Assembly (NCBI GenBank): GCA_946699065.1 | Contig: CAMPDV010001813.1 | Location: forward strand, 1-64,000 | DNA from: Loxodes magnus | Lineage: Eukaryota; Ciliophora; Karyorelictea; Loxodida; Loxodidae | Length of the DNA stretch: 64,000 nucleotides | Reading direction: 5' to 3' | In this document: positions 8,276 through 10,075 of the stretch, piece after piece | Layout of the letters: each line of letters opens with the position of its first letter | Numbering within the stretch: the stretch's first letter is position 1 | The notes under the pieces: model-generated | What the model was told of the DNA's origin: nothing | Databases searched by the model: none | What the model saw: the letters and a program-made list of their open reading frames with translations, nothing else | Position numbers and translations under genes: made by a program

Positions 8276-10075
8276 TCAAATGATAATCTTGTTGTCGAGC
8301 ATTCATTTTATTTATTAAAATTGGAAAACCGAAATTCCAATTATTAGTATAAATTCTAAAAAAGAGCAATACATCAAATGCTTATTAGTAGAACTTATCC
8401 CTTCATTAAAACTATCTTATCTCTTTAGGCCAAATTTTATATCTAGAATTAAATCTTTTGACTCTTTCAATAAGTTATTAAGTCTAACTTCAAATGGTGT
8501 TAAGTGTTTTTCAGTTAGCAATTCATCTGTTGCATTACCTGTATGAACTGCAAATGTAACTCTTTTGTCTTCTAATCATCAATTGTTTGCAAAAATAAAG
8601 CGATATAATCCTGACTTATTGACGATAAAATAAAAAATCCCTTCTTTCTTTTTGATTTTTGACTAAATTATTTAATCCCCATCACGATCAATTTTAAAAT
8701 CAATATCCTGTTTTTCATTAGCAGCAACAAATCAAGATCCTCTTACAAGTGAAGGAACAATATTGATATCCTCATAGAAAATTTCTTCAGTTCTTGATTT
8801 AACATTAAAAGTAATTAGATCAGACGGAGTAAAATCACTCATATATTTTTCTCATTCTTCCATCAATATCTATTCGCTATCAACTTCGGCCATAATTCCT
8901 CCTTGTACAGCTGCACCATATGCAATTACTTCATCTGGAACAATTTCTTAATGAAGCTATTTTCCATTAAAGAAGTCTTTTAGAAGTTGTTTTACCTTAG
9001 GAATTTTGCTAGAACCACCTACTAGAATTATTTCATCAATATCGTTTTTACTCAAACTTAAATTTTCGAGAAGATCTTCTATGGATTGAATTGTTTTTTT
9101 GAATAAATCCATATTTAAATCTTCAAACTGTGCTCTCGTTAAAGTTTCATTTAGATCAAATCCTTCGATAATATTTTTGATTTGAATAGTAGTTTATAGG
9201 GCACTTGAAAGATGTTTTTTAGCATTTTCAATCACTCTTAACAATTTTTATTTTGCCTACTTATTGCTAGAAATATCTTATCCTGACTTTTCCTCAAATT
9301 ATTTAACTAAATATCCCAGAATTCTTTTATCCAAATCTTCTCCTCCTAAGTGAGTGTCTTCTGAAGTACCTAGTATATCATAAATTCCTTAATCAATATC
9401 GAGTAAACTTACGTAAAATGTAGTGCCTCCAAAATAATAAACTAACAGATGCTTTTCTGGTTCATCAATTCCATAAGCCATTGCAGCAGCAATAGGTTCA
9501 TTTAAAATTCTCACAATATTTAACCCAGCATTTATTCCTGCTTCTTTAGTTGCTAAACGTTAATCATTATTGAAATAGGCAGGAACAGCTAAAACTACAT
9601 CATAGACTTCAGTTCCTAGATATGCTTCAGCAATTTGTTTCATCTTGATTAATATATATGTTGAGAGCTATTAAAGTGTGAAAGCTTTGTAAAATCCTGA
9701 CTTTATTTCAAGATTAATATTAAGTTTATTTATTTAGTTGGCTACTTCAAAAATGAAATTATCCTTATCTTTTTGAACAGAATATTCATCATAACTTCTA
9801 CCAATCAATCTCTTAAAACCATACGCAGTTCCAGTTGGATTTATAGCGGCTTAGTTTTTAGCAGCTTCACCTATTAATAGTTAACCTTCACTAAATGCAA
9901 CATATGAAGGAGTTAACTTATTACCTTATTCATTAGGAATTATTTAGATTTTTCCATTCTTATAAATTCCAACACATGAATACGTGCTTCCTAAATCTAT
10001 CCCTACAACTGGTCCTTGAATTAATAAAGAAGATGCATACAAAGCAACAGTATGTATAATAAAAAGAAAGAACAT
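8276..10075 (-). CDS. Fusion protein: signal peptide, HSP70 ATPase domain, p24/GOLD domain, membrane anchor
   Basis: Exactly 600 codons from ATG at 10075 to TGA at 8276-8278, no intron needed. Residues 1-19 ([19 protein letters not shown]) are a signal peptide. Residues 22-395 are an HSP70 nucleotide-binding domain: [49 protein letters not shown] and [10 protein letters not shown]. The HSP70 substrate-binding domain is absent. After a 23-residue linker a p24 (TMED) module begins near residue 419, with [23 protein letters not shown] and [19 protein letters not shown]. It is followed by the p24 helix and a membrane span ([13 protein letters not shown]) near residues 570-590, then a short cytosolic tail. 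Five TGA codons fall at Trp positions. The phosphate-2 loop, normally D-x-GGGT-x-D, reads YFGGTTFY, so ATP hydrolysis may be lost. By known families it should sit in the ER/Golgi membrane with the ATPase domain luminal; its function is unknown. Confidence 0.88.

Follow-up and report, generated by a model that had tools for sequence, protein, structure and literature searches.

A predicted chimeric gene of Loxodes magnus joins a BiP-type HSP70 nucleotide-binding domain with a degenerate phosphate loop to a p24 membrane protein

A gene located at positions 8276-10075 on the minus strand of a Loxodes magnus contig encodes, in a single frame, a BiP-type HSP70 nucleotide-binding domain (NBD) followed by the body of a p24 membrane protein. 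The window, which is the whole stretch of DNA analyzed, comprises positions 1-64000 of the 72,549-base contig, and genome searches were performed in a macronuclear assembly of 705,730,643 bases. Translated with table 27, the gene gives one protein of 599 residues. Sequence comparison indicates that it is a real chimeric gene in the assembly and not an artefact of reading. We consider the structural and evolutionary part of this account to be well supported, and with somewhat less assurance we expect that the fusion makes a working protein. Among open-access articles judged by their titles and the start of their abstracts, we found none that describes a fusion between an HSP70 domain and a p24/GOLD module.

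The domain order proposed in the first-pass annotation, with a signal peptide, an HSP70 NBD, a p24-type GOLD domain, a helix and a membrane anchor in one frame, was recovered by our searches. The start codon and a signal-peptide-like hydrophobic N-terminus (10019-10075; residues 1-19; Kyte-Doolittle 19-residue mean of 2.11 at residue 1) align with the N-termini of two Loxodes BiPs and precede the NBD (8879-10018; residues 20-399). The two Pfam families named in that annotation both match the same protein: PF00012 (HSP70) at residues 23-405 with an E-value of 9.1e-136 (453.9 bits against a cut-off of 20.6), and PF01105 (EMP24_GP25L) at residues 421-592 with an E-value of 1.1e-28 (100.9 bits against 25.9). 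Only profile positions 1-386 of the 599 in PF00012 are covered, which corresponds to an NBD that lacks the interdomain linker and also, as had been claimed, the substrate-binding domain. The best match in the PDB is the NBD of human BiP (3iuc, E 2.9e-131), while the p24 half is matched by the TMED2 chain 21gl_B (E 1.7e-6). After a 21-residue p24 N-terminal extension (8816-8878) comes the GOLD-type beta domain (8537-8815; residues 421-513), assigned from PF01105, the TMED2 chain and an AlphaFold2 model. The helical stalk and transmembrane helix (8315-8497; residues 527-587) were placed by model helices at residues 527-533 and 537-594 and by hydropathy, which has its maximum in the 19-residue window 566-584. 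A short cytosolic tail (8276-8314), delimited by paralogue alignment and codons, completes the protein. Since the sequence points to an ER BiP and to a p24 protein as its parents, a membrane protein of the early secretory pathway, as first suggested, is the natural reading.

The AlphaFold2 model, built from 13 sequences, is weak (mean pLDDT 65, pTM 0.50). It contains the NBD, a low-confidence stretch at residues 396-418, eight strands at residues 421-511 and a long C-terminal helix, and pLDDT falls below 50 at residues 514-570. Foldseek listed 50 PDB matches, each an Hsp70-type chain or complex and for the most part BiP or Hsc70 (3iuc_C, for instance, has a TM-score of 0.70 by target length), and none of them is a GOLD match. 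The model agrees with the sequence-based domains and adds little to them.

A passage in PMC11441545 describes the L. magnus code as reading TAA and TAG as Gln, and TGA as Trp or, close to the mRNA end, as stop. The frame of 600 codons, initially called uninterrupted, is open in table 27; however, since this table has no obligatory stop codon, the open frame alone is weak evidence. Codon periodicity is strong, with GC fractions of 0.41/0.28/0.18 at codon positions 1/2/3. BiP proteins match in frame 0 only, over residues 20-402 and with a two-residue deletion. In DNA, the alignment with the p24 gene at C11 covers 610 bases with zero gaps. In the alignment with the BiP gene at C57, 6 nt are deleted and two 1-nt gaps cancel each other within 4 nt. 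The other BiP gene, at C116, shows the same 6-nt deletion, two cancelling pairs of 1-nt gaps and, at codon 21 in the signal-peptide region, one further 1-nt gap at the point where its DNA alignment starts out of phase. The cancelling pairs lie at fusion codons 269-271 and 334-335.

Both BiP genes are intact in the same genome and end in HEDL. The fusion NBD is 66-67% identical to them in amino acids, and 76.3% identical in nucleotides to C116 over 8879-10019 (blastn). The p24 half is 73% and 68% identical in amino acids to the p24 proteins of C11 and C5, and ~78% identical in DNA to the C11 gene. Among the 73 of 145 candidates scored in the genome search, the nearest copies share 66% of amino acids with the NBD and 71% with the p24 half, and each half is 22-24% diverged in DNA from its nearest relative found. 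Genes of the C11 and C5 type are composed of a signal-peptide-like start, a linker, an EEWExxMSDF-like segment, the GOLD domain, stalk, membrane helix and tail. The C11 linker has ~56 residues, of which 11 are acidic and 6 basic.

Similarity to the two parents meets at a short overlap. Blastn similarity to the C116 BiP gene spans 10019 to 8879 and that to the C11 p24 gene spans 8885 to 8251, so that a 3' flank at 8251-8275 still resembles the flank of the p24 gene (match to L009 down to 8251). The seven common bases, AGTTGAT (8879-8885), are found in BiP (GGAGTTGATTAG; AGV-D-Q) and in p24 (CCAGTTGATGAA; DPV-D-E). They share one frame in the two genes, end in Val-Asp, and are what illegitimate recombination at an in-frame microhomology would leave. 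The EEWEKYMSDF segment of p24 is kept, and the p24's own start and linker are lost. The annotation had seen no frame break at the junction, which holds, given homology to both parents in one frame, but had left undiscussed an in-frame TGA at 8852-8854 (W408). In all seven related p24 genes aligned over the EEWExxMSDFxPxDL-like segment, the corresponding codon is Trp (six TGG, one TGA). We therefore read this TGA as W and rejected it as a gene boundary.

The genome search for p24 returned 17 matches including the fusion (17 of 17 candidates scored). By eye, each of the 16 other loci has a signal-peptide-like start of its own (L015 and L016 being identical), and blastn of the fusion region gave no NBD match in their 1.5-kb flanks. 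L015 and L016 (G000:C377:153906-154424 and 160954-161472) encode identical p24 proteins in opposite orientation ~7 kb apart and may represent either an inverted duplication or an assembly palindrome. In L007-L012 and L017, a group of Loxodes p24 genes, an EEWExxMSDF-like segment occurs together with an N-terminal extension on the luminal side; inspection by eye found the usual GOLD cysteine pair in none of them.

Two candidates for a second fused locus were rejected. The copy at C342, with a match extending to residue 442, is a degenerate full-length Hsp70, and the BiP copy at C49 is a frameshifted pseudogene with an insert. Elsewhere in the genome, many Hsp70 copies were observed at C45 (~449-618 kb), C86 (~512-567 kb) and C854 (~136-166 kb) of G000, mostly at regular spacing (~2.8, 2.2 and 2.1 kb), and most of those at C854 match in two separate pieces. 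A divergent Hsp70-like gene, L050 (G000:C1023:87829-88974 and downstream), has DIGESYCN in its phosphate loop and continues in frame into a long Q/P-rich repeat tail of NQPQPLNQPTYNFQTTSQSP units.

The HSP70 part had been called an ATPase domain. The NBD match is present, but both aspartates of the second phosphate loop are lost. This phosphate/Mg loop reads DLGGGTFD in all four canonical Loxodes Hsp70s and YFGGTTFY in the fusion (9413-9436; D214Y, L215F, G218T and D221Y), as aligned with these proteins and human BiP, and the codons of the former aspartates are TAT (9434-9436) and TAC (9413-9415). Tyrosines 214 and 221 occupy the positions of Hsc70 D199 and D206, which leaves the set of active-site aspartates incomplete. 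D27 and K88, the equivalents of Hsc70 D10 and K71, are kept; residue 245, at the position of Hsc70 G230, is also unchanged. Mutation of the active-site residues D199 and D206 in Hsc70 affects ATP binding and hydrolysis according to a passage in PMC3137890, and PMC12406271 states in part that the residue of DnaK equivalent to D199 contributes to holding the water shell of Mg and that a DnaK Thr contacts the interdomain linker. This Thr is Ile in the fusion (T195I).

Of 24 pocket sites, listed from general knowledge with P194 left out, six are changed, compared with 40 of the 191 other invariant NBD sites, so the pocket has no special protection. The 18 sites kept include D27, K88, E193, G353-S355 and D381, which is why nucleotide binding without hydrolysis is possible. 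We rejected an active ATPase because of the losses D214Y, D221Y and G218T and the unprotected pocket, and judge from the residues present that the fusion NBD is probably not one. By subdomain, changes affect 21 of 92 invariant sites in IA, 2 of 30 in IB, 18 of 58 in IIA and 5 of 35 in IIB. The outer subdomains (IB and IIB, 7/65) are thus less altered than the inner ones (IA and IIA, 39/150) with a Fisher p of 0.012, in one post-hoc test using subdomain limits from general knowledge. The divergent Hsp70s at C342 (11/65 versus 31/150) and C1023 (30/65 versus 81/149) have no significant bias of this kind.

The C49 BiP-like copy (L021, G000:C49:734971-737526) is 78% identical to C57, lies in three frames and carries a ~1-kb insert. 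It served as a decay control with divergence similar to that of the fusion halves: the pseudogene is broken, whereas the fusion has kept its frame. We applied a hand-written codon maximum-likelihood model with three taxa for each half, and repeated it with five taxa for p24 to check the result. For the fusion branch, omega is 0.145 for the NBD, 0.083 for p24 and 0.087 for p24 with five taxa, and omega = 1 is rejected with likelihood-ratio statistics of 19.1, 18.6 and 31.2, respectively. Evolution of the NBD is faster than that of the BiPs, whose background omega is 0.011 (likelihood-ratio statistic 47.2 versus one omega), while the difference of the p24 half from its background of 0.026 is not significant (3.0). 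Silent sites are saturated and some branch lengths lie at their bound, and because saturation makes branch lengths unreliable, we rely on the omega contrasts solely in the form of likelihood ratios. Part of each branch also predates the fusion, so that the tests show constraint on the whole lineage and not its timing. Conserved sites change less than others in both halves: 46 of 215 (21%) against 62 of 147 in the NBD, where conserved means identical in the four canonical Loxodes Hsp70s, and 6 of 69 against 34 of 103 in p24. L011 contributed to the alignment of the seven related p24 genes at the junction TGA but not to the codon or conserved-site counts.

The C-terminus of the fusion is a p24 tail, with no HEDL-like end. 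The tails of the C11 and C5 p24 proteins read YYIKR(L/M)LDNK(I/T)VI and that of the fusion QQIK[TGA]MLDNKIII[TGA]. The last TGA, codon 600 (8276-8278), is at the ancestral stop position, and TGA591 (8303-8305) lies 27 nt, or nine codons, ahead of it. Since coding UGAs in L. magnus are depleted for ~20 codons ahead of true stops, as a passage in PMC11441545 reports, TGA591 is an ambiguous early stop that may end translation and give 590 residues instead of 599; to this extent the frame may be shorter than first described. The parental tyrosines (YY) and arginine are lost whichever TGA is used. The only cysteines in the whole protein are Cys34 in the NBD and Cys570 in the transmembrane region. 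PMC11414720, in the part available, gives C49-C121 as the GOLD disulfide of TMED9, and FF and KK as cytosolic motifs for coat binding. The disulfide pair is absent from the fusion, and the FF/KK motifs are absent from its tail (QQIK[W]MLDNKIII) and also from the C11 and C5 parents.

Dispersed repeats flank the gene. The upstream repeat (~10503-10907) has at least 39 further matches (40 scored of 3031 candidates) and three copies of ~400 bases elsewhere in the window; the downstream repeat (6300-6962, left edge approximate) has many further copies (40 scored of 1247 candidates). No remnant of a BiP substrate-binding domain was found on the contig, and no convincing p24 N-terminal remnant was found there (two matches, E 0.59 and 0.75). 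Other regions of the window include 50199-51149 on the minus strand, with WD40-type repeats by eye and 317 residues by codon score, some TGA being read as Trp. The regions 13647-14429 (minus), 36321-37028 (minus) and 57028-57831 (plus) are coding-like by codon score only and may be retroelement-derived.

The explanation that we favor, at about even chances, is that the 5' half of a Loxodes-lineage BiP was joined in frame to p24, and that a pseudo-ATPase head would act as a fixed docking or scaffold element on a p24 receptor body. The ER BiP half, with signal-peptide-like start and NBD, has taken the place of the signal-peptide-like start and linker of p24, and the frame has been maintained while both halves diverged by 22-24%. 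The predicted product would span the ER/Golgi membrane once and carry, on the luminal side, a head derived from BiP that lacks ATP hydrolysis, while its p24 body may still assemble with other p24 proteins or bind cargo. The head might hold ER Hsp70 partners such as nucleotide-exchange factors, or merely add luminal bulk at ER exit sites; no nucleotide-driven switch would operate. In this head the catalytic inner subdomains are less well kept than the outer ones, IB and IIB. Because nucleotide-exchange factors hold the Hsp70 NBD by its outer lobes, we put forward docking as the mechanism, as a tentative proposal. A more specific version, in which the protein would be a selected cargo or quality-control receptor whose NBD, freed from hydrolysis, recruits to the p24 complexes of ER exit sites either co-factors of BiP or clients bound to it, is rather doubtful.

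The main competitor is a non-functional chimera, a recombination product that is unexpressed or in early decay and is in frame by chance or only lately freed from constraint. The flanking repeats on a 72.5-kb contig, the raised omega of the NBD, the lost active-site and tail residues and the ambiguous tail TGA are all consistent with it, and the fast NBD with 46 of 215 conserved sites changed could mean loss of all function. However, the kept frame, set against the broken C49 pseudogene at similar divergence, the conserved sites still protected in both halves and the strong codon periodicity argue the other way, and we regard this outcome as possible but rather improbable. An unlikely alternative is that a dead NBD without a specific partner serves as luminal bulk or decoy, enlarging the luminal part of p24 and altering the exclusion of ER residents, with the short-tailed protein staying in the ER, where it would modify p24 complexes in a dominant way. 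A passage in PMC7291304 presents as a proposal that p24 proteins exclude ER residents from COPII vesicles through luminal bulk, which would fit, as would the tail change from YYIKR to QQIK[TGA]; the protection of the outer subdomains suggests instead, weakly, a surface under selection.

The first-pass annotation had proposed a nucleotide-gated receptor, in which ATP binding and hydrolysis by the NBD would switch how the GOLD domain binds cargo. The pocket is indeed largely kept (18 of 24 sites on the list taken from general knowledge), but D214Y, D221Y and G218T strike the phosphate/Mg loop, T195I strikes the linker-contacting Thr, the pocket is altered as often as other conserved sites (6/24 versus 40/191), and the allosteric partner, the substrate-binding domain, is missing. 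A receptor driven by ATP turnover is thus unsupported by our results, and we hold it to be very unlikely. An assembly chimera, or two neighboring genes read as one, is more improbable still and was rejected. The genome is rich in repeats and the contig is short, which would favor such an error; however, the join lies within both coding regions, in frame and at common bases, and the 73 of 145 candidates that were scored include no unfused gene that could have been mis-joined. The missing remnants of both parents on the contig, the absence of a separate signal peptide from the p24 half and the conserved W at the junction TGA also speak against it.

Among known systems, the fusion resembles BiP/GRP78 in its ER-type NBD (66-67% identical to the Loxodes BiPs) and signal-peptide-like start, but differs in lacking the substrate-binding domain and C-terminal HEDL, in having both loop-2 Asp residues replaced by Tyr, and in being membrane-anchored. 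With p24/TMED proteins it shares the GOLD domain, helical stalk, transmembrane helix and short tail; unlike that family its p24 part is without the GOLD disulfide cysteines, and unlike Loxodes p24 proteins it has a BiP NBD in place of the signal-peptide-like start and linker, and changed tail residues. HSPA13/STCH, an NBD-only protein of animals, is likewise an ER Hsp70 NBD without substrate-binding domain. A passage in PMC9691929 describes it as an active ATPase with no such receptor domain, whereas the fusion NBD is not stand-alone, is followed by a p24 module and has lost two active-site Asp residues.

Links between the two parent families have been reported. In the part of PMC6541436 available, BiP, calnexin and TMED proteins accompany a misfolded GPI-anchored protein to the surface of the cell, and PMC7291304 mentions that deleting p24 in yeast causes Kar2 (yeast BiP) to escape, an effect also attributed there to the unfolded protein response. 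The fusion clearly illustrates how a 7-nt microhomology can give rise to a new gene, here in a genome that can use UGA as sense or stop. If the proposal is true, a permanent docking head would tie the Hsp70 cycle covalently to export from the ER. ER quality control already brings p24 and BiP together, and their natural fusion would directly test whether this link is physical.
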